Of a DNA stretch of 64,000 nucleotides, positions 27,728-62,053 are shown piece by piece. How positions within the stretch are numbered: position 1 is the first letter of the stretch; each line of letters starts with the position of its first letter. Under the pieces are notes generated by a model. It ran no database searches, was not told the origin of the DNA, and saw nothing but the letters and a program-made list of their open reading frames with translations. This DNA comes from Oscillospiraceae bacterium (lineage in GTDB: Bacteria; Bacillota; Clostridia; Oscillospirales; CAG-382): the NCBI GenBank assembly GCA_015064895.1, contig SVRI01000001.1:266787-330786 (forward strand), read 5' to 3'. Made by a program: the position numbers and the translations under genes.

Positions 27728-27745
27728 ACTATCATCCTTTTGCAA

Positions 27746-27802
27746 GTTAGGAGTTAGGAGTTAGGAGTTAAATGCAAAATGCAAAATGCAAAATGCAAAA
27801 TG
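27746..27802. repeat. Two short tandem repeats in the activase gap
   Basis: About 25 bp of the 9-mer GTTAGGAGT, immediately followed by four copies of the 8-mer AATGCAAA. The same 9-mer recurs at 36560-36681. Confidence 0.9.
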
Positions 27803-36534: not shown

Positions 36535-36559
36535 GTGCCGTCGTAAGACGGCACTTTTT
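36535..36559 (+). terminator. Terminator of the phosphate cotransporter gene
   Basis: Perfect stem GTGCCGTC-GTAA-GACGGCAC followed by TTTTT, five bases after the stop. Confidence 0.92.
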
Positions 36560-36681
36560 AGTTAGGAGTTAGGAGTGTAGGGACAGGCGTCCTCGACTGT
36601 CCGAGTTAGGAGTGCGGAATGAGCTGCGGCTCGCCGCTTAGGAGTTAGGAGTTAGGAGTTAGGAGTTAGGAGTTAGGAGTT
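36560..36681. repeat. 9-bp tandem repeat array (GTTAGGAGT) with embedded hairpins
   Basis: Two units of the 9-mer come first, then a GGACAG/CTGTCC hairpin segment and a GCGG/CCGC-rich segment. At least six further consecutive 9-mers run to about 36680. Related to the short array at 27746-27770. Confidence 0.88.
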
Positions 36682-36698
36682 GGGGATGAGATATCAAC

Positions 36699-38992: not shown

Positions 38993-40012
38993 ATGAAAAA
39001 ACTGTTATTATTAATTTTGGCTTTGTTAACGGCATGCTCTGTTTTGCTTTCGGGATGTTATTTGAGTCTGTCGAATGTAGACAATGACCGTGATGACAGC
39101 GATGAGGATGAAGAAGACGAGAGAGGTGAAGCGTTGATTGTTGCCACGGGCGGTAATTCCGGAACTTACTATGCGTACGGTATGGCTATGGCTCACGTAA
39201 TTTCCGATGAAACGGGTATTGAGCTTGACGTTCAGTCAACAGGTGCATCCAAGGCAAACATCCAGCTTATCCGGGCAGGCGAAGCAGATGTCGCCATGGT
39301 TCAGAACGATGTTATGTACTATGCTTATACAGGAATAAATCATTTTGACGGAGAAATGTATCGCGGCTTCTCTGTGTTGGCAACTCTTTATCCGGAGCTT
39401 GTGCAGATTGTTGCAAGAAAGGACAGCGGCATTACAACAGTTTCAGACCTTGCAGGTAAGAGAGTTTCGGTAGGCGATGCAGGCAGCGGTACTGAATTAA
39501 ACGCAAAGCATATTCTTGGCGCATGCGGTATAGATATTGAAAATGATATAGAAAAGTATAACTTTGACTTCGGTAAGTCTGCAGATGCTCTCAAGGAAGG
39601 CACAGTAGATGCATTCTTCTGCGTAGCAGGTATTCCTACAACAGCTATCACAGAGCTTGCAATAAGCCACGAAATCGTTGTTGTTTCCGTAGATGATTAT
39701 GTCTATAACAACCTTTATGACGATTATCAGTTCTATACACAGCAGACAATCCCTGCAGGTACATACAAGGGTGTTGACAAAGATATTAAGACCGTAGCGG
39801 TAATGGCAACATATATCGTTGACAACGACCTCGATGAAGAAACAGTATACGAATTCACAAAGGCTCTCTTTGAAAAGAAGGACGATATTGCCGATGCTCA
39901 TGCAAAGGGTGACGAACTCGATGTAGAAACAGCCATCAACGGTATTCCCGAAGAAGTGCCGATTCATCCCGGTGCAGAAAAGTATTATAAAGAAGCAGGA
40001 ATTATTCGCTGA
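38993..40012 (+). CDS. TAXI-family TRAP transporter solute-binding lipoprotein, paralogue 1
   Basis: 339 residues from ATG 38993 (MKKLLLLILALL), which gives a clean lipoprotein signal peptide with LLSGC. The earlier TTG and ATG codons lack it. TAXI receptor motifs: TGGNSGTYYAYGMAMA, STGASKANIQLIRAGEADVAM, GKRVSVGDAGSGTELNAK, DAFFCVAGIPTTAI. The linker after the cysteine is very acidic. It is about 60 percent identical by eye to the receptor at 41602 and has no permease of its own. It has its own terminator. Confidence 0.9.
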   Translation: MKKLLLLILALLTACSVLLSGCYLSLSNVDNDRDDSDEDEEDERGEALIVATGGNSGTYYAYGMAMAHVISDETGIELDVQSTGASKANIQLIRAGEADVAMVQNDVMYYAYTGINHFDGEMYRGFSVLATLYPELVQIVARKDSGITTVSDLAGKRVSVGDAGSGTELNAKHILGACGIDIENDIEKYNFDFGKSADALKEGTVDAFFCVAGIPTTAITELAISHEIVVVSVDDYVYNNLYDDYQFYTQQTIPAGTYKGVDKDIKTVAVMATYIVDNDLDEETVYEFTKALFEKKDDIADAHAKGDELDVETAINGIPEEVPIHPGAEKYYKEAGIIR

Positions 40013-41601: not shown

Positions 41602-42594
41602 ATGAAAAAGACATTATGTCTCGTACTCGCAGTGCTTATGGTTTTCACAGTAGTACTTACAGGCTGTGGAAAGAAAGCGGATGGCGATAATGGCGAAAAG
41701 AAAACTGAAAAGATCATTCTTACAACAGGTGGCGAAGCAGGTACATATTATGGTTACTGCACAGCTATGAGCGGTGTTCTCACAGACAATACTGGAATTG
41801 AATTTAAGGTTCTCACTTCCGGTGGTTCCAAGGCAAACATTCAGCGTATTCAGGTTGAAGATGCAAATATGGCTATTGTTCAGAACGACGTTATGTATTA
41901 TGCATACACTGGTACAGACCTTTTCACCGGTGAACAGACACAGGACTTCTCTGCAATGGCTGTTCTTTACCCCGAACTCTGCCAGATCATCGCTACTAAG
42001 GAAAGCGGCATCAAGACTGTTGCTGACCTCAAAGGTAAGCGTGTATCTGTAGGTGACGCAGGCAGCGGCGTTGAATTCAACGCAAAACAGATTCTTGAAG
42101 CTTACGGCATTGATATGAACAAGGATATTGAAAAGCAGAACCTTGGATTTGATGCTTCCGCTGACGCTCTCAAGGACGGCAAGATAGATGCATTTTTCTG
42201 CGTAGCAGGTATTCCTACAACAGCCATCACAACACTTGCACTCAATAACGAGATTGAAGTTGTTGAAGTGGAAGACGACAAATTCGAAGAACTTGCTTCC
42301 AAGTACGGATTCTATACAAAGCAGATCGTTCCCGCAGGCACATACACAGGTGTTGATGAAGACAAGCAGACTGTTGCAGTTATGGCTACATACATTGTTG
42401 ATAACGACCTTTCTGAAGAAACTGTTTACAACATGACAAAGGCTATGTTTGAAAACAAGGATGCAATCATTGCTGTTCACAAGAAGGGTGAAGAACTTGA
42501 TGTGAACAAGGCGATAGAAGGTATTCCTGCTGAAGTACCCCTCCATCCCGGTGCAGCGAAGTACTACAAGGAAGTTGGCGTACTCGCTGAATAA
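41602..42594 (+). CDS. TAXI-family TRAP transporter solute-binding lipoprotein, paralogue 2
   Basis: 330 residues. Signal peptide with lipobox VLTGCG; same TAXI motifs as the 38993 protein (TGGEAGTYYGYCTAMS, GKRVSVGDAGSGVEFNAK, DAFFCVAGIPTTAI). Its leader GGAGGTAACTCAAATGAAAA is identical to that of the SLH gene at 46873, suggesting strong translation. It binds an organic solute, unknown here, for the TRAP permease encoded 180 bp downstream. A terminator between receptor and permease would keep the receptor in excess. Confidence 0.92.
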   Translation: MKKTLCLVLAVLMVFTVVLTGCGKKADGDNGEKKTEKIILTTGGEAGTYYGYCTAMSGVLTDNTGIEFKVLTSGGSKANIQRIQVEDANMAIVQNDVMYYAYTGTDLFTGEQTQDFSAMAVLYPELCQIIATKESGIKTVADLKGKRVSVGDAGSGVEFNAKQILEAYGIDMNKDIEKQNLGFDASADALKDGKIDAFFCVAGIPTTAITTLALNNEIEVVEVEDDKFEELASKYGFYTKQIVPAGTYTGVDEDKQTVAVMATYIVDNDLSEETVYNMTKAMFENKDAIIAVHKKGEELDVNKAIEGIPAEVPLHPGAAKYYKEVGVLAE

Positions 42595-46872: not shown

Positions 46873-49800
46873 ATGAAAAACTTTAAGAAGTTTCTCACAC
46901 TCGTTCTTGCAGTTATGATGGTTGTAAGCTCCATGGCTTTCTCCACATCCGCTGCAACAACAAAGTTCGAGGATGTTGACGCTGATAACGAAGCTCTCGT
47001 TAAGGCTGTTGACCTTCTCAGCTACATGGGCGTTGCTAAGGGTAAGTCCGAAACTAACTTCGGCGCTGAAGAAGCAGTGACTCGTGAACAGTTTGCTCTC
47101 TTCATTTACAGACTTATGAAGGGTGGCAAGGATGCTCCCGCTAACGCATCCAACACAACAAAGTTTACAGACCTTGAAGACAGCACTTACTTCTATGCTA
47201 TTAGCTGGGCAAATGCTGAAGGTATCGTAAACGGTAAGTCCGAAACATCCTTCGGTCCCAAGGATGGCATCAAGCTTCAGGAAGCTTACGCTATGATCGT
47301 AAGAGCTCTTGATTGGGAAGAAGAAAACGACCTCGTTTATCCTTACGGCCACATCGAAGTAGCTGAACAGGAAGGCGTTGAACTCGACAAGGGTCTCGAC
47401 TCCAAGGTTGGCTACGCTGATACTCTTACAAGAGGCGACATGGCTATCCTTCTCTACAACGCATTCTTCGCTGAAACAGGTGTTGAAGAAGTTGCTACAA
47501 GAGAAAGAGAAATCGGTACAGGCAACAATGCTACATGGGTACTCGAAGAATACACAACTAACCCCAGACTCTGCGAAAAGGCATTCGACGTTATCGAAGT
47601 TGAATATGATGTAACAGCTACACCTAACTACTTTGTAGGTGATGCAGAAGCAACATATGACCTCGGCTACGATGCAGTTTACGTAGAAAAGGTTGAAGAC
47701 AGCGAAGTTAACGCTGACGCTACAGAAGCTCCTAACGCAGCTTATGTAACAGCTGAAGACCTCGGTGTTGAAGCAGCTGAACTTAACGACTACTTCCTCG
47801 GCCGCGTTACAATGTTCGTAACAGTTGACGACGAAGAAATCGAAAAGGTTCTCTTTGCTGACTGCAACATGGTTAAGAAGACTGTAACTGAACTCAAGCT
47901 CGGTGAAGTTTCTTCCAACAAGGCTGATAGCTACTTTGCAGCATCCGAAGGCGAAGCTAAGCTTCTCTCCGGTAAGATCACAGCAGGCGAAGACGTTATG
48001 TACGTATTCAACGCTCCTTACTCCTATGCTAAGGAAACATATCCTCTCAACGCTGACGCTGAAACAAAGTACGCTGTAAGAAACAGCAAGAACCTCAAGG
48101 CTATCTCTATCGCTAAGGTAGAAGAAGATGACGAAACTCCTATCTACACAGCAGAAGTTTCCGAAATCGTTGAAGATGTATATGATGCAGACGGCTTCTT
48201 CGCACCTCAGGCTGAAGCACTCGTTGGTGCACTCCAGCAGGTTTACTACGAAGGTCTTTACGAAGCTGACCTCTACGACGTAGACGGCGACGGCATCTAT
48301 GACTACATCGATTACAAGCCTTACTGGCTCTTCCAGGTTGACTCCGACGAAGAAGAATACTTCGAAGATTCTGACTTCGAACCCGGCGACCTCTCTGAAT
48401 TTGATCTTCCTTACATCTACACTAACGAAGCAACAGTAGTTGGTGAAGACTTTGCTGATGAAGACGTTGTTATCGGTTACTACTCCGAAGCAAACGAATT
48501 CGTTAAGGTAGCAGCAGTTGTTAAGCCTGTTGTTACAACAATCGACAGCTTCTCTAAGAGAAACGGCACACTCACACTCGGTAACGGTGATGTAGTTGAC
48601 GCTGTAAGCGCTTGGAAGCTTCTCGGTCACCTCGATCCTACAGAAGAAGTTATATTCGACGAAGACCTCGTTAAGGACGAAATCGTTGAAGACGAAGAAG
48701 GCTACTTCACAACAGCAGTACTTGACAGCGATGACGAACTCGAACTCTACGTTCACGACGGCGTTCTCCTCTTCGGTACAGATGTTGACACAGTATCCAA
48801 GTTCTCCGAAAACCTCTTCATCCCCACAGAAATCAAGGGCATCAAGGAAGGTCCCTTCGATCCTGCTACAGGTAGCGTAACATACTACATCTACGCTTAC
48901 GTTGATGGTGATGTTAAGTACGTTCCCGTTGCAATTGACGAAGATATCGACAATCCTATCGTTGACGAAGACGGTAACTACAACCGTGATTACACAGATA
49001 CACTCTGCACATACACAGTTAAGGACGGCATCTACACAATCGTTCCCCTCGAATTCGACCTTCTCGCTGACGGCGACGTTGAAAAGGAAGCTCTCTCCAC
49101 AGATGTAGAACTTCTCGACGACGAAAAGAAGGAAGAACAGGTATTTGCAGCTGACCTCGGTTCCACAATCACAAAGATCGCTGGTTCCAGATTTGACATC
49201 GGCTTCGAAAGATCCGTTGACTTCAAGTCCTACTCCAAGATCATCATCAGAGTTTATGACGCTGAAGAAGATGAATATGAATACGTTGAATACGATGCAG
49301 CTACATTCAAGAAGTCTCTCGACGAAGAAACAACTCTTGAAAACATGAAGGCTATCATCTCCAACAACGTTGACAGCACATCCAGAGAAAACCTCGTTCT
49401 TCTCTATGCTGAAACAGATAACCTCGCATTCGCAGGCAGGGCTGACAAGGACGGCTACAGAATCGTTTCTGTATACGACATCGCAGCTGACGCTGAAGGT
49501 CTCTGGAGAAACTACTACGAACTCTACGATCCTTACACAGGTGCAAAGGTAACTGACGTTGCTTCTGTTGAAGGTGAAAAGAAGTCCGGTAACCTCCAGA
49601 CAGCTCTCAACCCCGGTACAATCATCGAACTCGTTGAAGGCCAGGTTGAAGATACAAAGGATAAGTACATCGTAGCTGAAGAAATCTCTACAGACAACCT
49701 CGTTTGGATTGCTGAAGTAGATGAAGCTGAAGGTTACTTTGTAGCTGTTCCTTACGATGAATCCCTTACTGATAAGGACGAAATCGACGCATACGTTGAA

Positions 49801-50160
49801 GGCGCTACAGGCGATGCTATCAATGATATCTACGGCGAAGAAATCCCCGGTAACTTCATCGACTTTGATAAGAACACAGTAGTATCTGTTATGAAGTACG
49901 ACGAATACAACTCTTCCTTCTGGAAGTGGGGTACAATGAGCCTTTCTAACATGAGCGCAATCGCTGATGCTAAGAAGGAAGTTCTCTGCTGGAACGATAA
50001 GGCAGAAGACAGAAGCGGCAACTTCGTAACTAAGTACGCTGACTACGTTAAGGCTTATGTATCTGTTGATGCAGAAAACCTCGACGAAGACGAAAATCCT
50101 GTAGCTGAATTCATCATCGTTATCGTTAACGGTGCTGAAAACGCAGCTCTCGATGCATAA
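46873..50160 (+). CDS. SLH-domain S-layer-type surface protein 1
   Basis: 1095 residues. Signal peptide (MKNFKKFLTLVLAVMMVVSSMAF...SAA). Three SLH domains at about 29-83, 96-148 and 155-205 (VTREQFALFIYRLMKGG; ANAEGIVNGKSETSFGPKDG; LTRGDMAILLYNAFF) anchor it to cell-wall polymer. The long remainder is very acidic (Glu/Asp-rich) and beta-rich. It has almost no rare codons (GCT, CTC, GAA, AAG, AAC, TCC preferred), typical of an extremely abundant protein. The last 250 residues form a module shared with the proteins at 50556 and 59666 (YADYVKAYVSVD...AEFIIVIVNG). Confidence 0.93.
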   Translation: MKNFKKFLTLVLAVMMVVSSMAFSTSAATTKFEDVDADNEALVKAVDLLSYMGVAKGKSETNFGAEEAVTREQFALFIYRLMKGGKDAPANASNTTKFTDLEDSTYFYAISWANAEGIVNGKSETSFGPKDGIKLQEAYAMIVRALDWEEENDLVYPYGHIEVAEQEGVELDKGLDSKVGYADTLTRGDMAILLYNAFFAETGVEEVATREREIGTGNNATWVLEEYTTNPRLCEKAFDVIEVEYDVTATPNYFVGDAEATYDLGYDAVYVEKVEDSEVNADATEAPNAAYVTAEDLGVEAAELNDYFLGRVTMFVTVDDEEIEKVLFADCNMVKKTVTELKLGEVSSNKADSYFAASEGEAKLLSGKITAGEDVMYVFNAPYSYAKETYPLNADAETKYAVRNSKNLKAISIAKVEEDDETPIYTAEVSEIVEDVYDADGFFAPQAEALVGALQQVYYEGLYEADLYDVDGDGIYDYIDYKPYWLFQVDSDEEEYFEDSDFEPGDLSEFDLPYIYTNEATVVGEDFADEDVVIGYYSEANEFVKVAAVVKPVVTTIDSFSKRNGTLTLGNGDVVDAVSAWKLLGHLDPTEEVIFDEDLVKDEIVEDEEGYFTTAVLDSDDELELYVHDGVLLFGTDVDTVSKFSENLFIPTEIKGIKEGPFDPATGSVTYYIYAYVDGDVKYVPVAIDEDIDNPIVDEDGNYNRDYTDTLCTYTVKDGIYTIVPLEFDLLADGDVEKEALSTDVELLDDEKKEEQVFAADLGSTITKIAGSRFDIGFERSVDFKSYSKIIIRVYDAEEDEYEYVEYDAATFKKSLDEETTLENMKAIISNNVDSTSRENLVLLYAETDNLAFAGRADKDGYRIVSVYDIAADAEGLWRNYYELYDPYTGAKVTDVASVEGEKKSGNLQTALNPGTIIELVEGQVEDTKDKYIVAEEISTDNLVWIAEVDEAEGYFVAVPYDESLTDKDEIDAYVEGATGDAINDIYGEEIPGNFIDFDKNTVVSVMKYDEYNSSFWKWGTMSLSNMSAIADAKKEVLCWNDKAEDRSGNFVTKYADYVKAYVSVDAENLDEDENPVAEFIIVIVNGAENAALDA

Positions 50161-50228: not shown

Positions 50229-50333
50229 GCGGCAAGTTGCCGCTGACGGCACACGTTATATGCCAGAAGTAAGCAAGCCTTTAGTGTCGCATAACGAACT
50301 TTACCCGACCGTCAAACAACGACAGTCGGGTAA
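50229..50333 (+). repeat. Dispersed structured intergenic repeat, copy A
   Basis: Starts with hairpin GCGGCA-AGT-TGCCGC followed by TGAC, has the core AGTGTCGCATAA, and ends with hairpin TTACCCGAC/GTCGGGTAA (50301-50333). The remainder of the gap to 50440 has no coding sequence, only a short GCTGTCGGGCTGTC match to copy D. Confidence 0.8.
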
Positions 50334-50440
50334 TTATTAATTCCGGATGTTGGAGACGGCTGTCGGGCTGTCTGTAGTTATAAGCACGAGCTTTGAATTT
50401 TGGGCTTTTTGCCTTGGTTCTGTTGTCTTGTCGTCCATTC

Positions 50441-50501
50441 TGTTACATTTGTGTTACAAAATAAAAAAAGACTTGCAAAAAGAAGAATAGTGTTGTAGAA
50501 T
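50441..50501 (+). promoter_or_regulatory. Promoter of S-layer gene 2 with shared upstream direct repeat
   Basis: TTGCAA (50473-50478), 17 bp, TAGAAT (50496-50501). The direct repeat TGTTACATTTGTGTTACA (50441-50458) precedes the -35 by the same distance, within 1 bp, as at S-layer gene 1. Confidence 0.75.
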
Positions 50502-50555
50502 ATAACATGTAAATTACTCTATTTATGAGCAAAATTATTAGGAAGGGGTAACAAT

Positions 50556-53500
50556 ATGAGAAATTCTAAATTTCTTGCTACCACAATAGTTGCATTGTTG
50601 CTTGCATGCGTTCTCGCAGTAGCATCCTTTGCAGCTGTAACACCGTTCACAGATGTCGATGACAAAAAGAACGAAACACTTTCCGATGCAGTTTCACTTC
50701 TTAACGGTCTTGGCGTTGCTAAGGGCGTATCTGAAACAAAATTCGGTACAATGGATTTGGTAACACGTGAGCAGATGGCTGCTTTCGTTTACAGACTTAT
50801 GAAGGGCGGCAAGTCTCTTGAGGGCGGTTCCAACACAACTCCCTTTACAGACCTTACCGACAGCACATACTACGGTTATGTTTCCTGGGCTAACGGCACA
50901 GGTGTAATCAAGGGTACAAGCGCAACAACATTCAATCCCAAGGGCGGTATCACTCTTCAGGATGCATATACAATGGTTGTTCGTGCTCTTGACCATGAAA
51001 CAGATTCCTATGTATATCCTTTCACTTATATCGATAAGGCTGAAGAACTCGGCCTCGATGAAGGTCTTGACTCGGTAGTAACCTACACAACAAAGCTTAC
51101 ACGCGGCGACGTTGCTATAATTCTTTACAATACATTCTTTGCAGAAACAGGTAAAGAAGAAACAAAGCAGGTTGAAAGACTTATCGGCGGCGGCAAGAAG
51201 TGGGTTCTTGAAACAAAGACATACAATCCCACAGTTGCTGAAGATATCTACGATGTAGAAGTTGGCAGCTTCGAAGTTCGTGCAACTCCTAAGTTTGCAT
51301 TCAACGAAGATGAAAATTCCGACGAATACATTCCTCTCTGCGACGACTTCGAAGTGGACATGCTTCACCTCGTAGCTGCAGATGAAGACGAAGCACTTCA
51401 GAATATCTACTGCGAATTTGCTGACACAGGTCTTTCGGGTTCTGCTGATGACTACATCATGTGCGGTGTAGAAGTATTCTATACATATGAAGAAAAGAAC
51501 GGTAATAAGGAACTCGAAAAGATTTACTTTGTAAACGGTTCCCGTAAGGTTCTTGAAACAGGTTCTGCGAACTATGAATATGTAGATCCTTCCGAAAAGG
51601 GTGACTACTACTACTACACAAGAGGTACCAAGGAAGGTACATACAGTGACTATGAAAAGGTAAAGGGCTTCCTCACAGTAGGTAATGAAACAATTTACTT
51701 CTTTGACGCTCCCTATTCCTACACAAAGCCTACTTTCACAGTTGATATGACAGCTGATGAAAGATACGAACTCGTAAATGAAAAGAACGCAAAGCTCATT
51801 AATATCAAGTGCCTCGATGAATCAAAGGGTACATACTCCTACTATGTAGATGAAGTTAATCAGCCCACAGGCGATGCTAATGATATGATGAAGACTCTCC
51901 TCAGAGTATACTCCAGAGGTGTATATAAGCTCAAGTTCTATGATATCGACTGCGACGGCATTTATGAATATGCTCACTATATGCCCGCAACCTACGGTTT
52001 CATGGACGGAGACGATAATAAGCTCTTCTCCACAGATATGGACAGCAACAAGCCTGTAATGGAACCCAAGACAGGTTCTTCACTTGATGTTTCCTTCACA
52101 CCTACAATCTACTATAACGAAGCTAATATTTCCGGTGCTGCATTTGAAGACGGAGATATGGTATTTGCATACCTCAATCCCGCTGCAAACATGATCGAAG
52201 TAATGACTGTTATCAAGCCTTACAACGGTTATGTCAGCCAGGTTAGACCCGAACACGGTATGGTAAAGATTGACTCTACAACATTCCAGTCTGCTTACAC
52301 ATGGAGAATTATTGAAGAATTTGACGATGACAGCTCACTCTACGAGCAGTACAATTTGATTTCAAATACTTCACACGACTTCTTTACACTTCCTTCATTC
52401 GGTTCCGGCAGTACATTCCCCACTCTTATGAGCCAGGATGCTGTTGGTGAAATCTGCGATATCTATGCTTATAAGACAAACGGATGGAACCCTGTAATCG
52501 TTTACTACGATCACGTTGAAGATGCTTCCATGTCCTTCGGTCTTGATGAGCTTGCAATTGTTGTAAGTAACGAAGACAACGACGCTGAAACATATACAAA
52601 GAGTAAGTTCGATGCAAAGATCGGCGATTCCATCCAGTATGCTAAGGTATACTACAACGGTAAGGTTTCCTACCTGCCTCTCGATACAGAAGAAATGTAT
52701 CCCGAACTTGATGACAGCGCATATGTTGACGGCGTATTCAACCTTTCCGAAATCACAGGTCAGAACGGCTATAGAGCATATGTAGATAAGGTTGCTAAGG
52801 TTAAGGTTAATTCCGACGGTCAGTATGCACTTATTCCTCTTCTCCATGCAGAAGATGAAGACGGCGAATACGTAGGCGTTGGCAGAGACAGCCTTGTTCT
52901 TCTCGATGAAAAGACAGTTAAGCAGTTCGGTAACGACCTTGACTTCGAAACAGAAGGCTTTATCAAGAAGGTAGCAGGTAACAGATTCCAGCTCGTTGAC
53001 GGTAACGGCGAAACACTTCTCGGCGATATCTACAACGTAAACGGTACTACTGTTAACTACTTCAATATGACTGCCGGCACAAGAATCATTATCAAGAATA
53101 AGATTTCCGGCGGTGATAATGAATACGAATACCTCGAATTTGACGCTACAACATTCAAGGAATCCAGCGAAAACGCTCTTACAAACATTCAGTACATCCT
53201 CAAGAATGTTCCTGAATCCACAACAAGAGCAGACCTCGTTCTCCTCTATGCTGAAGCAGAAGACTTCGAATTTACAACAAAGGCTGTAAAGAACGGCTGG
53301 AGAATCGTTGCAGGCTCCGAAATCAAGAAGGATGCTGAAGGCGACTACAGACACTTCTATAAGCTCCTCAACCCCTACACAGGTGAAGTTGAAGAATCCG
53401 TTGCAGGTAAGTACTATGACGATAAGGCAGCTGACCTTGAAGATGCTGTTGAAGTAGGTACAATCATCGAAGTTAAGAACGGTGTTGTTGACGAAGAAGG

Positions 53501-54083
53501 CGATGTTCTCGGTACAATCGACACATCCGTATCCGAAGGTCTTGTATACCTCACAGAATACGATGCTGAAGAAGGCTATGTAACATTCGTTCCCGTTGAA
53601 GCAATCGAAAGCGATGTATGCTGCGGCGATGACCTTAAGGACTTTGTTGAAACATACAAATACGAAGGCGCTGAAGTTAACTTCGACGGCGAAGAATTCC
53701 TTCTCACAGTTGACCGCAACGACGATCCCATCTATGGTAAGGCTCTCAACTATGCTATCACAGAAGATACAGTAATCTCTGTACTCGTAAGTGATGAAGC
53801 AGGCGCTGATGCAGTAGAAGGCGAATTCAAGGTTGCAGGTGTTGAAGCTATCGAAAAGGCATCCAAGGAATATAAGTGCTACAACGAAAAGGTACTCAAT
53901 AAGAAGGGTAACTACGGCACAGAATACGCAGAATATGTTAAGGCATATATCTACGGTTCCAAGGCTCCCAAGAACGAAGACGAACTTCCCGTTGCTGAAT
54001 ACATCATCATCGTTGTAAACGGCGGCGAACAGCTTATCTTCACAGATTTCGACGATAACTTCTACCCCGATTCTCACGATTAA
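50556..54083 (+). CDS. SLH-domain S-layer-type surface protein 2
   Basis: 1175 residues. Signal peptide (MRNSKFLATTIVALLLACVLAVASFAA) and three SLH domains within about the first 205 residues (TPFTDVDDKKNETLSDAVSL; VTREQMAAFVYRLMKGGKS; LTRGDVAIILYNTFFAETG). It is paralogous along its length to the 46873 protein, sharing the CDGIYEYAHYMP/DGDGIYDYIDYKP-type segment and the C-terminal module (YAEYVKAYIYG...AEYIIIVVNGG). Strong codon bias, slightly weaker than gene 1. GGAAGGGG stands before the ATG. Likely a second or alternative array protein of the cell surface. Confidence 0.92.
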   Translation: MRNSKFLATTIVALLLACVLAVASFAAVTPFTDVDDKKNETLSDAVSLLNGLGVAKGVSETKFGTMDLVTREQMAAFVYRLMKGGKSLEGGSNTTPFTDLTDSTYYGYVSWANGTGVIKGTSATTFNPKGGITLQDAYTMVVRALDHETDSYVYPFTYIDKAEELGLDEGLDSVVTYTTKLTRGDVAIILYNTFFAETGKEETKQVERLIGGGKKWVLETKTYNPTVAEDIYDVEVGSFEVRATPKFAFNEDENSDEYIPLCDDFEVDMLHLVAADEDEALQNIYCEFADTGLSGSADDYIMCGVEVFYTYEEKNGNKELEKIYFVNGSRKVLETGSANYEYVDPSEKGDYYYYTRGTKEGTYSDYEKVKGFLTVGNETIYFFDAPYSYTKPTFTVDMTADERYELVNEKNAKLINIKCLDESKGTYSYYVDEVNQPTGDANDMMKTLLRVYSRGVYKLKFYDIDCDGIYEYAHYMPATYGFMDGDDNKLFSTDMDSNKPVMEPKTGSSLDVSFTPTIYYNEANISGAAFEDGDMVFAYLNPAANMIEVMTVIKPYNGYVSQVRPEHGMVKIDSTTFQSAYTWRIIEEFDDDSSLYEQYNLISNTSHDFFTLPSFGSGSTFPTLMSQDAVGEICDIYAYKTNGWNPVIVYYDHVEDASMSFGLDELAIVVSNEDNDAETYTKSKFDAKIGDSIQYAKVYYNGKVSYLPLDTEEMYPELDDSAYVDGVFNLSEITGQNGYRAYVDKVAKVKVNSDGQYALIPLLHAEDEDGEYVGVGRDSLVLLDEKTVKQFGNDLDFETEGFIKKVAGNRFQLVDGNGETLLGDIYNVNGTTVNYFNMTAGTRIIIKNKISGGDNEYEYLEFDATTFKESSENALTNIQYILKNVPESTTRADLVLLYAEAEDFEFTTKAVKNGWRIVAGSEIKKDAEGDYRHFYKLLNPYTGEVEESVAGKYYDDKAADLEDAVEVGTIIEVKNGVVDEEGDVLGTIDTSVSEGLVYLTEYDAEEGYVTFVPVEAIESDVCCGDDLKDFVETYKYEGAEVNFDGEEFLLTVDRNDDPIYGKALNYAITEDTVISVLVSDEAGADAVEGEFKVAGVEAIEKASKEYKCYNEKVLNKKGNYGTEYAEYVKAYIYGSKAPKNEDELPVAEYIIIVVNGGEQLIFTDFDDNFYPDSHD

Positions 54084-54106
54084 TCGGATAGTTAAATCAA
54101 ACATTA

Positions 54107-54136
54107 ATCCCCCGACTTTGGTCGGGGGATTTTTTG
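54107..54136 (+). terminator. Terminator of S-layer gene 2
   Basis: Perfect stem ATCCCCCGAC-TTTG-GTCGGGGGAT followed by TTTTTG. Confidence 0.95.
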
Positions 54137-54196
54137 TATATATTCGTATAACAATAAAAAAACCTCAATATAATGAAATATATCGGGGTGAAGAAT

Positions 54197-55732
54197 ATGT
54201 ATAATAATTTAAGTAGAACTGCAATGTCGAGCCGCAATTTCACGGTCAGTGTGATGGGAAGAATCGTGGGAATGCTTACAAGTTTTGCCGGCAGGGCTGT
54301 TTTTGTAAAGGTGCTGAGTGCAGAATACCTTGGACTTGGCGGTTTTTTCGGCAATATCCTATCTGTTGTTTCGCTGTGCGAATTGGGAATAGGTGCGGCA
54401 ATTTCTCAATCACTTTATAAACCTCTGGCTGAAAATGATGAATATGCAGTTGCAGCGATAATGACTTACTATAAAAAAATCAGTAAAATAACTGCATTTG
54501 TAACGCTTGTGTTGGGGCTTGCAGTATTGCCGCTTATTCCGAATTTTACAAAGACGGATATAGATTCAAAAGTGATTATTGCAGCCTTCCTTTTATTTAT
54601 CATACATAATACTGTGTCATATGTTTTGTTGCCGAAATGTGCTCTGGTAATATGTGACCAAAGAATGTATGTAATAACTGCCGTAAGAAGCATTTTCGGG
54701 ATAGTTGCTTTGATACTTCAGAGTGTTATGCTTGTTGTAACGGGTAATTATCTAATATATCTTGCATCAAGGATACTCGTTTTGACGGTTGAGGATGTTT
54801 TGATTAATGTATATGCCGAAAAGAATTATCCTTGTCTTGCTTATAAAATGTCTGTAACAAAAGAGTATAAAAAAAGCCTTTTTACAAATGTAAAGGCTCT
54901 GGTATGGCATAAAGCAGGGGGCGTCATGTCTAGAAGCACCGACAGCCTTTTGCTTACATATTTCGTTGGACTTTCGGGTATGGGAAAATACTCTAATTAC
55001 GCACTTGTCATAGGCACAATCGGTGCATTTTTCGATGTGGCAATAAATGCAGTGTCGGCAAGTGTGGGAAACCTCGGTGCCGGTGACAGAGGTGAAAAAA
55101 GCGAAAAAATAATGCGTAAGCTTTATTTTATGAATTTCTGGATGCTGACGGTCGGAACAAGTGTAATACTGTGTACTCTTAATCCTTTTATACAGATTTG
55201 GCTCGGAAGAGAGATGCTGTTTTCCAACATTGAAATGGCGGTAATAGTATCGGTGTTTTATTTTTCGTGCGTAAGAGATCCGGTGCAGATTTTTGTATCG
55301 ACCTATGGCTTGTTTAAGGAAAGTAAATATATTCCGATTCTACGAGCCCTTTCAAATCTTGTTCTGTCTGTAGTTTTTGTAAAACAAATGGGAATTGCAG
55401 GCGTTTTTCTCGGAACTGTTCTGTCTACGGTGCTTGTGCCGCTTTTCGGTGAAGTGAAGGTGCTTTATAAACATGGATTTTCCATGAAACCTTCAAAATT
55501 CTATAAAGAAATGCTGTCATATATCGGCATTTCATTTCTTTGTGTATCGCTGTGCTTTTTGCTGACATATACGGTGAAAATCTCACTTGTGGGAGTGATT
55601 GTACGGGGAATATCCGCTTTTTGTGCTTCAAATGCAGTTTTGTTTCTTTTCTGCTCTGAAAATGAATATTTTTACGGTGCATCGTTGGTTATAAAACGAG
55701 TACTGTCAAAAAAGAATAAATCAAAGCTTTGA
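54197..55732 (+). CDS. Wzx/MATE-type polysaccharide flippase
   Basis: 511 residues from ATG 54197 (MYNNLSRTAMS), which has GGGGTG upstream; the ATG at 54173 lacks a ribosome site. About twelve to fourteen hydrophobic segments; N-terminal GRIVGMLTSFAGRAVFVKVLSAEYLGLGG is the usual start of oligosaccharide-flippase family members. It would move lipid-linked glycan across the membrane, for example for the cell-wall polymer that SLH proteins bind. No polymerase or transferase genes adjoin it. Its 3' end overlaps the convergent AraC gene by 12 bp. Confidence 0.85.
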   Translation: MYNNLSRTAMSSRNFTVSVMGRIVGMLTSFAGRAVFVKVLSAEYLGLGGFFGNILSVVSLCELGIGAAISQSLYKPLAENDEYAVAAIMTYYKKISKITAFVTLVLGLAVLPLIPNFTKTDIDSKVIIAAFLLFIIHNTVSYVLLPKCALVICDQRMYVITAVRSIFGIVALILQSVMLVVTGNYLIYLASRILVLTVEDVLINVYAEKNYPCLAYKMSVTKEYKKSLFTNVKALVWHKAGGVMSRSTDSLLLTYFVGLSGMGKYSNYALVIGTIGAFFDVAINAVSASVGNLGAGDRGEKSEKIMRKLYFMNFWMLTVGTSVILCTLNPFIQIWLGREMLFSNIEMAVIVSVFYFSCVRDPVQIFVSTYGLFKESKYIPILRALSNLVLSVVFVKQMGIAGVFLGTVLSTVLVPLFGEVKVLYKHGFSMKPSKFYKEMLSYIGISFLCVSLCFLLTYTVKISLVGVIVRGISAFCASNAVLFLFCSENEYFYGASLVIKRVLSKKNKSKL

Positions 55733-56545
55733 ATACTTTTTTCTGTATTCCGAAGGCAAAACCTTGTAAAGCTTTGAAAATGCTTTTGCAAAATAAGAAG
55801 GATTGTCAAAACCGCATTCATAGGATATTTCAGCAATGGTTTTTGATGTTTCTCTGAGTAAAAAGCCTGCGTTTTCACACCTTATTGCATTTATATGTTC
55901 AATAACCGTAAAGCCCGTGTTTTCCTTGAAAATGCGGGCAAAATGATATCTTGAAAAGCCGGCATGTGATGATAATTCTTCCAAGGTGAGTTTTTGTGAA
56001 AAGTGCGTGTTTATGTGTTCGACGGCATTTAACACTGCGGCATAGCTTTTTGAGAGACTCCTTGTTTCTGCTTTGTTTTTTACAGAGTGATTTTTACAGA
56101 TGTACACTATAAACTCAAGCACGGCAAGACGAGTTTCGGCAACAGAAAAAGAATTTTCGTTTGAACTGAAAATGTCTGCAATTTTCATTATAAGCTCACC
56201 TGCCTTTTGGTCGCAGATGCTCTGATGGAAGGATATAGCTTCAATTTCAATGCCGTTATCCTTGAAGAAAGAATTGTCAACAATGAGACAGTGATATTTC
56301 ACTTCGGTGTTTGTACTTACTGCATGAAGCTGTTTTGCGTTAATGATAACGGTTGTACCTTTTTTCATGGAAATGTCAGATGCATCACAGTTGACTTTGC
56401 CTTCTCCTTGAATACAATAAAGAATTTCTGTGTTTTCGTGCCAGTTTGCAGTTCCGCTTTCATTGTGAATGCAAATATCGGTATGAAATATGAATGGCAG
56501 GTCGGGATTGGGCATAAGATGATGCTCGTATTTGATATCAATCAT
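55721..56545 (-). CDS. AraC-family transcriptional regulator
   Basis: 274 residues. N-terminal cupin-type sensor (GTANWHENTEILYCIQGEGK, MKKGTTVIINAKQLHAV) and C-terminal double helix-turn-helix (LTLEELSSHAGFSRYHFARIF; IAEISYECGFDNPSYFAKAF). GAGGTT precedes the ATG. Divergent from the two isomerase genes, so it probably controls them; tandem GCACAATT sites lie at the -35 box between them. Confidence 0.9.
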   Translation of the reverse strand: MIDIKYEHHLMPNPDLPFIFHTDICIHNESGTANWHENTEILYCIQGEGKVNCDASDISMKKGTTVIINAKQLHAVSTNTEVKYHCLIVDNSFFKDNGIEIEAISFHQSICDQKAGELIMKIADIFSSNENSFSVAETRLAVLEFIVYICKNHSVKNKAETRSLSKSYAAVLNAVEHINTHFSQKLTLEELSSHAGFSRYHFARIFKENTGFTVIEHINAIRCENAGFLLRETSKTIAEISYECGFDNPSYFAKAFSKLYKVLPSEYRKKYSKL

Positions 56546-56583
56546 AAAAAAACCTCAAAAAAGCAATATTATTTTATTAGATG

Positions 56584-56625
56584 GCACAATTTTGTCTTGA
56601 TTTCAGCACAATTATATTATATAAT
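56584..56625 (+). promoter_or_regulatory. Isomerase operon promoter with tandem AraC-type half-sites
   Basis: TTGATT (56597-56602), 17 bp, TATAAT (56620-56625). GCACAATT occurs at 56584-56591 and again at 56606-56613, 22 bp apart (two helix turns), flanking the -35 box. Confidence 0.65.
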
Positions 56626-56677
56626 GAAATTGAATTAAAAGCAAGAGAATGCTTTGAAAAGAAAGGAAGACAGAAAA

Positions 56678-57535
56678 ATGTATAAGTTTCCAATAGGCGT
56701 AATCATTGACTCCTTCAGACTCCCCACACGTGATGCCATAAAGGCAGCAGCAGACATCGGTGCAGCAGGTATTCAGATGTACTGCACAAAGGGTGAAAAC
56801 TCCCCTGAAAATCTCGTGGGTGAAAAGAGAAAAGAACTCCTCAAGTACGTTAAGGACAACGGTCTTGTATTCTCCGCAATCTGCGGCGACCTCGGTCAGG
56901 GCTTCGGTCACAAGGAAAAGAACCCCGAGCTTGTTGAAAAGTCCAAGAGAATTCTTGACCTTGCAAAGGAACTCGAAACAGATATCGTTACAACTCACAT
57001 CGGCGTAGTTCCCGAAGACCATAATCACGACAGATTCAAGGTTATGCAGGAGGCTTGCTTTGAGCTTTCAAGATATGCTGATTCCATCGGCTCTCACTTT
57101 GCTATTGAAACAGGTCCCGAAACAAGTGCAACATTAAAGTCCTTCCTTGACACACTCGATTCCAAGGGTGTTGCAGTAAACCTTGACCCTGCAAACCTCG
57201 TTATGGTAACAGGTGACGCTCCCGTTGTTGCCGTACATAACCTTAAGGACTACATTGTACATACACACGCAAAGGACGGCGTAAAATTAAAGCACGCAAA
57301 TCCCGAATACCTCTACGGTGCGGTTCATCCGATTCCTCAGGAAATTCTTGAATCCAGACACTACGAAGAAGTACCTCTCGGACAGGGCAGCGTTCCTTAT
57401 ATCCACTACCTCAAGGCACTTGAAGAAGTCGGCTACAAGGGCTTCTTAACCATCGAAAGAGAAGTTGGCGACAATCCTGCAAGAGACATTAAGATTGCTA
57501 TAGATTATCTCAACAAGATAATGGAGGAAAACTAA
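56678..57535 (+). CDS. Sugar-phosphate isomerase/epimerase-like TIM-barrel protein 1
   Basis: 285 residues from ATG 56678 (MYKFPIGVIID) with AAAGGAAG upstream; the TTG start in the track is not needed. AP-endonuclease-2/xylose-isomerase-like fold: TTHIGVVPED, FAIETGPE, VNLDPANLV, HTHAKDG, LGQGSVP and TIEREVG carry the usual metal-binding His/Glu/Asp residues. Substrate unknown. Translationally close to the next gene (one base between stop and ATG). Confidence 0.85.
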   Translation: MYKFPIGVIIDSFRLPTRDAIKAAADIGAAGIQMYCTKGENSPENLVGEKRKELLKYVKDNGLVFSAICGDLGQGFGHKEKNPELVEKSKRILDLAKELETDIVTTHIGVVPEDHNHDRFKVMQEACFELSRYADSIGSHFAIETGPETSATLKSFLDTLDSKGVAVNLDPANLVMVTGDAPVVAVHNLKDYIVHTHAKDGVKLKHANPEYLYGAVHPIPQEILESRHYEEVPLGQGSVPYIHYLKALEEVGYKGFLTIEREVGDNPARDIKIAIDYLNKIMEEN

Positions 57536-57536
57536 A

Positions 57537-58421
57537 ATGAAAGTTTCAGTAAGCTCATATTCTTTCCAGCAGTACATAAGTGCCGGAAAAATGACACAGC
57601 TTGACTGTGTTGCAAAGGCAAAGGAAATGGGTTTTGACACAATCGACTTTATCGAAATGAAGAACGGTCAGAATCCCACACTTGAAGAACAGAAGGAATA
57701 TGCAAGACAAATCAGAGCAAAGGCAGACGAGCTCGGCATGAACATCGAAGCATATTTCGTAGGTGCACACCTTTACTATGACACACCTGAAGAAAACGAA
57801 GCAGAAGTAAAGCGTGTATGTGACCAGCTTGACATTGCCAAAATTCTCGGCTGTAAGATTATGCGTCACGACGTATGCTATCACCTTACAAAGACAGGCA
57901 ACGGCAAGAGCTTTGACCTTCAGCTTCCCACAATCGCCGAAAACTGCCGCAAGATAGCAGACTACGGTCAGGCTCTCGGCATCAAGACATGTGCCGAAAA
58001 CCACGGCCACATTGCACAGGATTCCGACAGAATGGAAAGACTCTTCAATGCAGTAAACCACGACAACTTCGGTCTTCTTGTAGACTTCGGCAACTTCTCC
58101 TGTGCTGATGAAGACCACATCACAGCGGTATCCCGTGTTGCTCCTTATGCAGTAAACGCACACGCAAAGGACATGCACCTCTATAGCGGCAGAGATTCCG
58201 TTCCCGGCTTCTGCAGCCCCACAAGAGGCGGTAACTTCTTCAGAGGCTCTATCATCGGTCAGGGAGACGTTCCCGTAAAGCAGTGCATCAGAATTATGAA
58301 GAGAGCAGGCTACGACGGCTACCTCTGCATCGAATTTGAAGGCAAGGAAGACTGCATCCTCGGTATCGAACAGGGCTTCGCAACACTCAAGCGTTACATC
58401 GCTGAAGTAGAAGCCGAATAG
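57537..58421 (+). CDS. Sugar-phosphate isomerase/epimerase-like TIM-barrel protein 2
   Basis: 294 residues. Same superfamily as its neighbour: IMRHDVCYH, KTCAENHGH, VDFGNFS, NAHAKDMH, IGQGDVP, CIEFEGKED hold the metal-binding residues. GGAGG lies inside the end of the previous gene. The two adjacent members may act in sequence or as a complex on a keto sugar. The stop codon TAG is followed at once by a hairpin of the dispersed repeat. Confidence 0.85.
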   Translation: MKVSVSSYSFQQYISAGKMTQLDCVAKAKEMGFDTIDFIEMKNGQNPTLEEQKEYARQIRAKADELGMNIEAYFVGAHLYYDTPEENEAEVKRVCDQLDIAKILGCKIMRHDVCYHLTKTGNGKSFDLQLPTIAENCRKIADYGQALGIKTCAENHGHIAQDSDRMERLFNAVNHDNFGLLVDFGNFSCADEDHITAVSRVAPYAVNAHAKDMHLYSGRDSVPGFCSPTRGGNFFRGSIIGQGDVPVKQCIRIMKRAGYDGYLCIEFEGKEDCILGIEQGFATLKRYIAEVEAE

Positions 58422-58610
58422 GCACGGAGTCCGTGCTGACATTTTCGCGGGCAAGTTTCGCGATTAACATACCATCGGTGTCGCACAAATAACTTTTTGT
58501 TGCCGTCAATCAGCAAGACGGCAACAAAATTGCAACACCGACGCAGTATTGAACAGCACACACCTTTATATCACGACTGTCCGTTCACAACCGTCAAACA
58601 CCGACGGTTG
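58422..58610 (+). repeat. Dispersed structured intergenic repeat, copy B
   Basis: Begins one base after the TAG stop with GCACGG-AGT-CCGTGC and then TGAC. The core GGTGTCGCACAAATAAC lies at about 58476-58492. Further hairpins are GTTGCCGTC/GACGGCAAC (58499-58525) and CAACCGTC/GACGGTTG (58588-58610). It fills nearly all of the gap before nagB, and no separate promoter is obvious. Confidence 0.82.
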
Positions 58611-58659
58611 CGAACTGCAAAATTATTTCGCACTACACCAAATGAAAGGAAAAATAATC

Positions 58660-59370
58660 ATGAAAATAGTAGTATGTAACACTTATGACGAACTCAGCCA
58701 GTACATCGCTGACAGAGTAGCTTCTCTTGTAAACGAAAAACCCGAATGTATCCTCGGTCTTGCAACAGGCTCAACACCCGTCGGTGCTTATGAAAAGCTC
58801 GGCGAAATGTGCAAAGCAGGCAAGGTAGACTTTTCCAAGGTTCGTTCCTTCAATCTTGACGAATATCTCGGTCTTACACCCGACAACGACCAGAGCTACC
58901 GTTACTTTATGAACAAGAACCTCTTTGAAAAGATCAACATTGATATCAACAACACTCGTGTTCCCTCCGGTATTTCCGAGGATCCCGACAAGATGTGCAA
59001 GGAATACGACGAAGCAATTGATGCCGCAGGCGGCATTGACCTTCAGCTTCTCGGTATCGGTGAAAACGGACACATCGCATTCAACGAACCTGCCTCTCAG
59101 CTTTACAGCGGTACACACGTAACAGATCTTACAGAAAGCACAATCAAGGCAAACTCCAGATTCTTCGAAAAGATTGAGGATGTTCCCACACAGGCAGTTA
59201 CCATGGGTATCGGCTCTATTATGAAGGCAAAGAGCATCATCATCGCAGCAAACGGTGCAAACAAGAAGGCTGCCGTTGACGTTCTCAGAAGCGGCATGAT
59301 TGATACAAATTGCCCTGCAAGCGTTCTCAACGCACACAGAGACGTAACTCTCGTAGTTTGCGGCTGCTAA
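58660..59370 (+). CDS. nagB: Glucosamine-6-phosphate deaminase
   Basis: 236 residues from ATG 58660 (MKIVVCNTYDEL) with GAAAGGA upstream; the ORF-track start at 58549 reads through repeat DNA. Converts glucosamine-6-phosphate to fructose-6-phosphate and ammonia. Motifs: GLATGSTPVGAYEKL (phosphate loop), SFNLDEYLGL, GIGENGHIAFNEPA, and MGIGSIMKAKSII. Length fits the short Firmicute NagB type. nagA is not in the window. Hairpin repeat starts straight after the TAA. Confidence 0.95.
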   Translation: MKIVVCNTYDELSQYIADRVASLVNEKPECILGLATGSTPVGAYEKLGEMCKAGKVDFSKVRSFNLDEYLGLTPDNDQSYRYFMNKNLFEKINIDINNTRVPSGISEDPDKMCKEYDEAIDAAGGIDLQLLGIGENGHIAFNEPASQLYSGTHVTDLTESTIKANSRFFEKIEDVPTQAVTMGIGSIMKAKSIIIAANGANKKAAVDVLRSGMIDTNCPASVLNAHRDVTLVVCGC

Positions 59371-59533
59371 CGGCGAGTCGCCGCTGACATATTCGCGGGC
59401 GATATTTGATTGAAAAAAGCTTTTGGTGTCGCGTAAATAACACCGTTTGGTCGGCAGTCGGGACAGCCCGACAGCAAATTCGCGGGCGATACTTGATTGA
59501 AACGAGCTTTTGGTGTCGCGTAAATAACACCGA
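59371..59533 (+). repeat. Dispersed structured intergenic repeat, copy C (87-bp period)
   Basis: Starts directly after the nagB stop with CGGCG-AGT-CGCCG and CTGAC. Two units of 87-bp spacing each begin ATTCGCGGGCGATA and contain TTTTGGTGTCGCGTAAATAA. Between them lies the 39-bp segment 59443-59481 found inverted at 27884-27922. Confidence 0.9.
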
Positions 59534-59562
59534 CAAAGCCATAACGTAATTAACAGTTATAC

Positions 59563-59600
59563 ATCCCGACTGCCAAAAAGGCGGTTGGGATTTCTTTTGC
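59563..59600 (+). terminator. Terminator after nagB and repeat C
   Basis: Stem ATCCCNACNGCC/GGCNGTNGGGAT with loop AAAAA, followed by TTCTTTT. Confidence 0.8.
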
Positions 59601-59606
59601 GTTTTA

Positions 59607-59635
59607 TTGACATTTTTCTTTTGGTGTGATACAAT
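59607..59635 (+). promoter_or_regulatory. Promoter of the InlB-repeat surface protein
   Basis: TTGACA, 17 bp, TACAAT, 30 bp before the ATG. Confidence 0.8.
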
Positions 59636-59665
59636 ATCCAGAGTATTAATTCACGGAGAGTATTG

Positions 59666-62053
59666 ATGAAAAGAATAAAGCAAACCATTCTATTACTTGT
59701 TTTGACAATTTTAATATGTACCGTGACAGCTTTTGCACAAAGTCCTGAAATAACCGGCACTTCCGTGCGTATAGAAGAGCCTGTCGGCATTCGTGTGATT
59801 GCTGAAATCGGCGCAGACTTTGCCGAAAGCTCTGTCGAAGAATATGGTTTTCTTGTTGCCCGTAAGGTGTTTCTTACTAAAGACGGTCTTGAAAATACAG
59901 ACCTGACACTGGACAGCGGTGTCCGTTACACGAAGGGCATTTCGTATGGATTTGAAAACGGAGAGCCGGTCGACCGCTTCTTTGACAAAAACGATGAGAT
60001 AGTTGCTTTTGCTGCAAATGCTCACGGTGTACCCGAACGTTTTTATTCCGAATCACTTGTAGTACGTCCTTATGCCGTTTTGAAAGACGGCAGTGTAAGT
60101 TACGGTGCTCCGACTCAAACGAGCATTTACGGCGAAGCCAAAAAACTTGCCGCCGATACCGACCTTTATGAGTCGCTGTCAAACGAACAAAAAGCGTTAG
60201 TTTACGGTGTTATACTTGCGGTTGAGGGCGAGCCTTATATCCTTAACAGGGACGATTTTCGGATTGTACTTTCAAGCGAGGTTGTCAAGAACGAGAACCC
60301 TTCATATTCTGTAAGTTACAAGCTTTTTAACCCATTTACAGGGGAGATTCTTGAAAGTGTCAAGGGAAGAAAGAGATCTAAAATTCGCAGTGAAATCGAC
60401 GAAATGCTTTTGTCTTCCGGCTGTATTGTCCCCGTGTATGACGGTGTTGTTCAGGACACAACAGAGGGGTATGTTGTTGGCAACATTTCCGATTTTGTAC
60501 CTATGTGGATTGGAAATACCGACCTTGACGAAGGCAGAATATACCTCTCGGTATACGATAAAACCCTTGCCTGCAAGGACTGTATAGGTGAATATATATC
60601 GGAAAATCCGATGTCTGTATCGGCCAACATCAATACACCCGTGTCCGTTTTTGGCGGAAAACTTGAAAATCCGCAGTTTGCTTTGTCGGATATGACAAGG
60701 GTTGTCTCAAAGGATAAGTCCCTTCTTTGCCGAAACGGTGATGTTTACTCCGACTATGTAAAGGCATATGTTTCGATTGATGCAAGCCAAAATGCCGAAT
60801 ATATTATTGTTATTTCGGATACAGACGAAAGTATAACAGATGAAAAGTGTCAAAAACACACATTTTTTGACGTAAGCTTTTATATTGACGGTGAGCTTTA
60901 CGAAACAAGAAGCGTGCTTTTCGGCACAAGCACAAGTCTTCCCGAAGTTCCCGAAAAGGACGGCTACACCTTCCTCTACTGGTCGCAGTCTGAGAACGGC
61001 GAGGCGGTAAATGTTGAATCGGAAGTGATTACTCAAAGCACAACTTATTACGCCGTATTTGAAAAAAATCCCGTTTACTATGAAGTAAAGTTCATAGTAA
61101 ACGGCGAGGAATATGCGTCACAGCAGGTACTTGAGGGCGAGTGCTCTACACTTCCGCAAACTCCCGAAAAGGACGGCTACACCTTCCTTTACTGGTCGCA
61201 GTCTGAGAACGGAGAGCCTGTAGACGTCGAATCAAATGCAATAACCCAAAACACCTCATACCATGCCGTGTTCAAGAAAAATCCCGTATACTATGAAGTA
61301 AAGTTTACGGTAGACGGCGAGGAATATGTTTCCGTACAGGTGCTTGAGGGTGAGTGTCCTACACTTCCGCAAGAGCCTCAACTTGAAGGATATGCCTTCC
61401 TCGGCTGGTCTATATCTGAAAACGGAGCAGTTGTATATCCCGAAGACATCCCTGTAAATTCCGATGCAGTATACTTTGCCGTATTTGAAAAGCTGATAGT
61501 CTACCACAGTGTTACATTTATTTTTGACGGACAGATACTCACAGAGTATAAAGTACTGTCGGGCGATGCGGTAAATGCACCCGAAAATGTACCCGAAACG
61601 GCAGAGGAATATAAGTTTATGGGCTGGTCAATGGAAAATGACAATGACAGAACAGGCATTATTGATGTTTCTTCCGTTACCATTGAAAGCGATACGGTTT
61701 TCTATTCCGTAATTATAACAAATCCCAACTCCGAGGAATTTATGCTCAAGATTAACAAGGGATATGATGAGCTTGACAAAATCAAGCGAGTTACGGGAAA
61801 CGCAAAGAAGGCACTTACCTTAATCAGAGATACCATTAAACTTGTCATCGATGATGCAAACGATTTCAAATATGTCGACCGAAACTATGTAATTGACATT
61901 TACGGCGATAAAATCGAGGAAGTTAAAAAGATAATCAAGGTAGATATGACAGAAGCGGAAAGAAGCCAGTTTGCAAATCTCATAAAGAGTAACGTAACAG
62001 ACGAGGTTGAAGAATTCCTCAAGGTTTACTTCAAATTCACCATAGAAATATAA
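59666..62053 (+). CDS. Secreted surface protein with InlB-type (Flg_new) repeats and S-layer-like module
   Basis: 795 residues from ATG 59666 with CGGAGAG upstream. Signal peptide ends near TAFAQ. Residues about 25-190 form an unrecognised domain (SVRIEEPVGIRVIAEIGADF). Residues about 195-395 match the C-terminal module of the two SLH proteins (LFNPFTGEILESV; YSDYVKAYVSIDASQ; AEYIIVISD). Four InlB B-repeat-type units follow, about 410-690 (VPEKDGYTFLYWSQSENGEA repeated with changes), then a helical C-terminus. No LPxTG or SLH domain is visible, so attachment is unclear; it may bind the S-layer through the shared module. Confidence 0.85.
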   Translation: MKRIKQTILLLVLTILICTVTAFAQSPEITGTSVRIEEPVGIRVIAEIGADFAESSVEEYGFLVARKVFLTKDGLENTDLTLDSGVRYTKGISYGFENGEPVDRFFDKNDEIVAFAANAHGVPERFYSESLVVRPYAVLKDGSVSYGAPTQTSIYGEAKKLAADTDLYESLSNEQKALVYGVILAVEGEPYILNRDDFRIVLSSEVVKNENPSYSVSYKLFNPFTGEILESVKGRKRSKIRSEIDEMLLSSGCIVPVYDGVVQDTTEGYVVGNISDFVPMWIGNTDLDEGRIYLSVYDKTLACKDCIGEYISENPMSVSANINTPVSVFGGKLENPQFALSDMTRVVSKDKSLLCRNGDVYSDYVKAYVSIDASQNAEYIIVISDTDESITDEKCQKHTFFDVSFYIDGELYETRSVLFGTSTSLPEVPEKDGYTFLYWSQSENGEAVNVESEVITQSTTYYAVFEKNPVYYEVKFIVNGEEYASQQVLEGECSTLPQTPEKDGYTFLYWSQSENGEPVDVESNAITQNTSYHAVFKKNPVYYEVKFTVDGEEYVSVQVLEGECPTLPQEPQLEGYAFLGWSISENGAVVYPEDIPVNSDAVYFAVFEKLIVYHSVTFIFDGQILTEYKVLSGDAVNAPENVPETAEEYKFMGWSMENDNDRTGIIDVSSVTIESDTVFYSVIITNPNSEEFMLKINKGYDELDKIKRVTGNAKKALTLIRDTIKLVIDDANDFKYVDRNYVIDIYGDKIEEVKKIIKVDMTEAERSQFANLIKSNVTDEVEEFLKVYFKFTIEI

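Follow-up and report, generated by a model that had tools for sequence, protein, structure and literature searches.

Introduction

REPs of the GTAG superfamily are palindromes that carry the tetranucleotide GTAG on one side and are associated with a RAYT (Y1) transposase, and a REPIN consists of two inverted REPs that form a replicating unit. Hairpins are also found at the ends of IS200/IS605 elements, where they are recognised as single-stranded DNA. BOX, RUP, ERIC, NEMIS/Correia and other MITE-like intergenic repeats are modular, fold, and occur in tandem and mosaic forms. In the CGTC superfamily of REPs, a CGTC (or TGTC/CCTC) tag lies by a stem of 8-9 bp with a loop of 4-5 nt (PMC3733652). 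E. coli REPs located no more than 15 nt from stop codons stall ribosomes and lower translation (PMC12306157).

Here we describe a family of repeats present in a 64,000-nucleotide stretch of Oscillospiraceae DNA, called the window below. They resemble REP/BIME elements and REPINs (PMC3733652, PMC3116915, PMC12306157) in being small, high-copy extragenic palindromes that form lineage-restricted families, in showing compensatory changes and inverted doublets (here in genome G186), and in lying in many cases near stop codons. Unlike those elements, they combine a conserved core with a second, long hairpin, they can carry the stop codon inside the hairpin, and most of the genomes that carry them have no RAYT. 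As far as could be checked the family is undescribed, being REP-like and outside the described families.

Repeat copies in the window

The layout of the family is a first hairpin (HP1) of 6 bp with a loop of 3-4 nt, a linker of ~40 nt, a core GTGTCGCNYAAAYAAC and a long hairpin (HP3, mostly 8-13 bp). Copy A (50229-50333, plus strand) has HP1 GCGGCA-AGT-TGCCGC at 50229-50243, the core at 50284-50299 and HP3 at 50301-50333 (TTACCCGAC...GTCGGGTAA). It lies 68 nt downstream of the stop codon of an S-layer-type gene (46873-50160), and a terminator-like hairpin with a T run is found between the two. Copy B (58422-58618, plus strand, fold z -5.5) has HP1 GCACGG-AGT-CCGTGC at 58422-58436, which starts on the base after a TAG stop codon (58419-58421), the core at 58478-58493 and HP3 at 58495-58529; 3' of HP3 there is an inverted ACACCGAC and then another hairpin extending to ~58618.

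Copies C and D consist of two tandem units each, with a unit of ~87 bp. Unit 1 of copy C (59371-59456, plus strand) begins with HP1 CGGCG-AGT-CGCCG (59371-59383) on the base after the TAA (59368-59370) of a nagB-like glucosamine-6-phosphate isomerase gene, and contains a core at 59426-59441 and the left arm of HP3. Unit 2 (59457-59535, plus strand) has HP1 GTCGGG-ACAG-CCCGAC at 59457-59472 and its core at 59513-59528. The bodies of these two units are 93% identical and yet their HP1s differ, which first indicated that HP1 can be separated from the body. Copy D is on the minus strand: unit 1 (27909-27995) has HP1 GCGGGG-AAC-CCCCGC at 27995-27981, and unit 2 (27804-27908) has HP1 GTCGGG-ACAG-CCCGAC at 27908-27893, a core, and HP3 at 27833-27804. 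The gene upstream of copy D (27965-30958, minus strand) ends inside unit 1, ~30 nt into the element.

A sequence-only reading of the window had described hairpins of the same geometry and different stem sequence, each accompanied by a core and a second variable hairpin, with two copies right after a stop codon; all of this can be read directly in the copies above, B and C being the two. It had also put forward that no Rfam family is known to have this form. The repeats share with Rfam structured RNAs a conserved, covarying structure, but the window gave no Rfam match at the gathering threshold, and the region 58300-59700 only chance-level matches.

The window contains other repeats as well. 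Arrays of the heptamer AGTTAGG, at 27745-27780 and 36553-36694, sometimes adjoin the elements, and several copies in the genome start directly after such an array. At 60938-61363, inside an open reading frame, 213 bp are directly repeated in tandem with 79% identity, and the segments 39212-39995 and 41791-42574, 2579 bp apart and 70-73% identical, are probably paralogous genes.

Family size and architecture

The proposal that this is a dispersed, structured repeat is borne out across the genome, where the core pattern has 51 matches as compared with 4 for a reversed control, and where a DNA search likewise revealed dozens of copies. Copies were then collected from this genome and its relatives with a covariance model (R1) built from the GC class of copies, as had been suggested, giving at least 78 copies in the genome itself and at least 70 and at least 77 in two congeners. 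The other 60 genomes searched in the bacterial family have 0-2 weak matches each. The model matches all six units of the window, including the two GTCGGG units that were outside the training set (3e-16 and 2e-14). None of 199 distinct copies was called inside a gene. With this location and copy number, the elements are REPs in the broad sense of small, high-copy, extragenic palindromic repeats.

In copies read in register, the HP1 loop has either 3 nt (AGT, AGC, AAC, AAG, TGC) or 4 nt (NNAG). On its 3' side HP1 is followed by a flank NGAC, NGGC or NGCA (GTCN, GCCN, TGCN on the other strand), then by AATTC[A/G]CGGG, the linker, GTGTCGCNYAAAYAAC and HP3. HP1 thus differs from the CGTC REPs in its 6-bp stem and 3-4 nt loop, and TGTC is found only in the AGT class, one base off the stem. 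Stems of at least 8 bp occur 3' of the core in 142/198 copies, against 13/198 random windows. The commonest HP3 is GTTTGNNNNN-CATAAANNCAA-NNNNNCAAAC; there are variants with different stems, and a second type of loop is seen around CAAACACCG. We considered a linker helix (HP2) as a further family feature and rejected it: linker stems of at least 5 bp are found in 29/177 linkers and in 16 after shuffling, a weak excess, the helix is absent from the covariation scan described below, and only single copies fold there.

Units occur in tandem, nested in other repeats, and as inverted pairs, and in three places (L065, C26 3320, L180) HP1 and its flank are duplicated ahead of HP1. This modularity, together with folding and the tandem and mosaic forms, is common to BOX, RUP, ERIC, NEMIS/Correia and other MITE-like repeats, but no long terminal inverted repeats were seen in the genus. 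To our knowledge the repeats have no known parent transposon and are unrelated in sequence to BOX, RUP, ERIC or NEMIS/Correia. A second mosaic repeat system (GTGAGAGGTAAGCCGCCGCGG..., GTTCTTTTGTCCCGAAACAAAAGAAC...) with nested GTCGGG-class units was also observed (L025, L027, L030, L033 around 1500), several copies of which are at contig ends.

Covariation of HP1 and HP3

Covariation in HP1 was measured over 115 distinct copies from two congeners; these copies were outside the model training, yet the alignment was fitted to the model, and in it HP1 is 97.9% paired (37-73% for slid controls), with double changes at all six pairs and a covariation score of 0.453 compared with 0.097 after shuffling. 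Copies of the window's own genome give the same picture, and the HP1 pairs rank first in a scan of all pairs with no structure given. HP3 covaries too, its inner pairs being 94% Watson-Crick, against 51% when arms were shuffled among copies. The compensatory hairpins first noticed in the window therefore pass a covariation test in a large alignment. Such covariation is one argument for a view that follows the sequence-only idea of selection for RNA structure, namely that the repeats are a cis-acting structured RNA on the 3' side of mRNAs, kept for each host gene because of a role in translation termination, mRNA decay or the downstream gene.

Two further correlations lie outside the stems. The all-pairs scan also picked out the last base of the HP1 loop with flank position +3, which are Watson-Crick matched within the genus (C:G 56, T:A 26, G:C 8). 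We discarded a true base pair as the cause, as distant HP1s have T:C at these positions in 9/50 cases, indicating a looser correlation, and a link of 2 nt could not reach across the stem. In alignment A4, columns 38/79, the variable base of CACGG/CGCGG in the linker covaries with the base after the TCGC of the core, linker A going with T or A and linker G with G, a pattern that is not Watson-Crick.

HP1 changes as a block at orthologous loci

We made 24 comparisons at orthologous places, recognised by shared flanking genes. Among the 144 HP1 stem pairs compared, 112 are unchanged, 28 have both bases replaced and 4 have one base replaced; transversions are required for 19 of the double changes. 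Between L045 and L143, three HP1 pairs differ although the remainder of the element is ~98% identical, and there are symmetric insertions and deletions in both arms; between L024 and L180, a single HP1 pair differs and the element behind it is otherwise the same. If stems were compensated step by step through G-U intermediates, single changes should be more numerous than the 4 seen. HP1 is therefore swapped as a block from another copy, or one arm is copied from the other. In either case HP1 covariation alone is no proof of selection on RNA, so the claim that two-sided changes show such selection is not supported in that form, and the inference from compensatory change to RNA structure is weakened for these repeats. 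Compensatory changes are frequent in REPINs too (PMC3116915). The blockwise manner of change speaks against a cis-acting RNA. Retention of the hairpin on one stop codon across two or three species, despite its altered sequence, speaks for it.

Palindromes might instead be kept by mutation, with template switching at near-palindromes copying one arm onto the other and yielding a perfect new stem per event. The ratio of double to single changes, the many transversions and the symmetric insertions and deletions of L045/L143 all agree with this, as does the hairpin of L067, whose 5' arm resembles the end of the gene itself. We nevertheless regard it as unlikely to be the explanation, since it accounts for neither the dispersal nor the conserved core and flank nor the position at stop codons, and since recurring stems and loop classes suggest exchange among copies. 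In L067, L069, L153 and L173 alike, HP1 has a 5' arm that looks like the native gene end and a 3' arm complementary to it. HP1 could then belong partly to the host and partly to the element, the gene end with its stop codon serving as 5' arm and the element supplying a 3' arm that pairs with it. The left end would pair with the last codons of a gene, either because some enzyme inserts the element at stop codons guided by this pairing or because the element adapts by it; we consider this an improbable account.

Stop codons at HP1

Using gene calls based on codon usage, we counted a copy as stop-adjacent if the gene upstream on the same strand had its stop codon within -10 to +6 nt of HP1. This is the case for 64/199 distinct copies, about ten times the count per bin over the seven 17-nt bins that follow (4-10 each), in line with the adjacency noticed at copies B and C. 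The stop codon is found in three registers: TAA or TAG directly before HP1, TA completed by the first G of HP1, or a stop within HP1 (GTGAGG, GTAGGG, GCGG-TGA, GCGGG-TAG). A plain TA target before HP1 can be ruled out as the reason for this adjacency, because most copies remote from stop codons have GG, CG or TT ahead of HP1. In the unrelated host G121, 4/22 HP1 matches are on a stop codon, compared with 2% of control positions. In G070 (L228:1038), an HP1 GCGGGC-AGT-GCCCGC follows a tRNA-Ile gene with no base between them.

All four copies in the window are on the same strand as their upstream gene, as had been reported. Beyond the window this is a bias and no rule: in tandem gene regions, 105 copies are co-directional with transcription and 33 opposed. 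With the stop-adjacent copies removed the numbers are 51:33 (p=0.06), so most of the bias arises because so many copies sit on a stop codon. The sharp excess at stop codons and the co-directional bias again favour a cis-acting RNA, but copies occur in both orientations, and copy A lies downstream of a terminator-like hairpin.

An RNA effect of elements at stop codons is plausible. The likeliest consequence, by analogy with the E. coli REPs, would be ribosome stalling at stop-adjacent copies, with reduced translation as a result. Being GC-rich and placed after stop codons, the hairpins could also be intrinsic terminators, and T runs do follow a few HP3 variants. However, HP1 and most HP3s lack the T run on either strand, and the terminator-like hairpin ahead of copy A is separate from the element, making termination a most unlikely function.

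Distribution and the search for a mobilising enzyme

Across the order and class we searched with R1 and with a short covariance model of HP1 and its flank (R2). Copies are abundant in the genus, and outside it the distribution is patchy: G121 and G186 are rich in copies, G136, G290 and G679 have a few, some genomes have single weak matches, and G160, of the same genus as G121, has none. HP1 at both ends of an element, in inverted orientation, is regular in G186 and occasional in the window's own genus. Copies are also present or absent at orthologous gene ends in different species. G002 is without the element behind nagB, G003 without the elements of L020 and L069, and the window's own genome without those of L153, L173 and L179. 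None of the compared gene ends offered a clean empty site with a target duplication; most sites lacking the element differ across the whole spacer and so show no clean insertion ends. L069 and L131 could differ by a deletion bounded by short repeats of CGGT.

No mobilising enzyme came to light: the Y1 transposase domain (PF01797) has no match in the copy-rich genomes G000, G002, G121 and G186 and a single match in G003 only, and the window's own genome has neither a TnpB-type domain (PF07282) nor a reverse transcriptase (PF00078). The HP1 pattern had no match in viral contigs, nor copy C in plasmids. The elements resemble IS200/IS605 in having hairpins near an end whose structure outweighs their stem sequence, but differ in that their genome lacks both Y1 transposase and TnpB domain. 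The idea that they are classical REPs made by a RAYT transposase draws on their small, palindromic, extragenic nature and on the inverted doublets of G186. It is largely refuted, and in our view very improbable, because HP1 has the flanks given above in place of a GTAG foot and PF01797 is missing from the four copy-rich genomes.

Discussion

On balance we favour the view that the repeats are a high-copy family of REP/REPIN type, made up of small palindromes that are mobile but non-autonomous and that would act as stop-codon hairpins when transcribed. Copy number, patchiness, block exchange and the tandem, nested and inverted arrangements all point to mobile palindromic DNA, as does presence or absence at orthologous gene ends. 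Covariation of HP1 and HP3 and placement on stop codons, in G121 too, likewise agree with this view; the missing usual REP enzyme and the failure to find a clean empty site with target duplication count against it. Patchiness, nesting, tandem units and inverted pairs fit such an element better than a stand-alone regulatory RNA, and for these reasons, along with those given above, we think a cis-acting RNA kept for each host gene somewhat unlikely.

In the REP-like reading, the left end of the element would be the 6-bp HP1 with its short flank, next to which come the short core and the long HP3. The hairpins may be kept because folded single-stranded DNA or RNA is the substrate of the machinery that copies and moves the element, with HP1 exchanged as a unit. 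Copies would survive where they do least harm, and thus often precisely where a gene ends, its stop codon lying either immediately ahead of HP1 or within the 5' arm. Once transcribed, HP1 might fold just behind the terminating ribosome and slow its release or shield the mRNA, comparable to the REPs of E. coli.

What is unusual here is that stop codons are built into a hairpin, that hairpins are exchanged as blocks at fixed gene ends, and that REP-like abundance is reached without RAYT. The block exchange is a warning that compensatory change in repeats is by itself no proof of selection for RNA structure. Because some copies are at contig ends, the repeats may also help break the assemblies of these ruminant-gut genomes. 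If our reading is true, a gut lineage of Clostridia has REP-like hairpins at its stop codons without the transposase thought to make REPs, and would provide a new setting in which to ask what makes REPs and whether stop-codon hairpins are tolerated passengers or are used.
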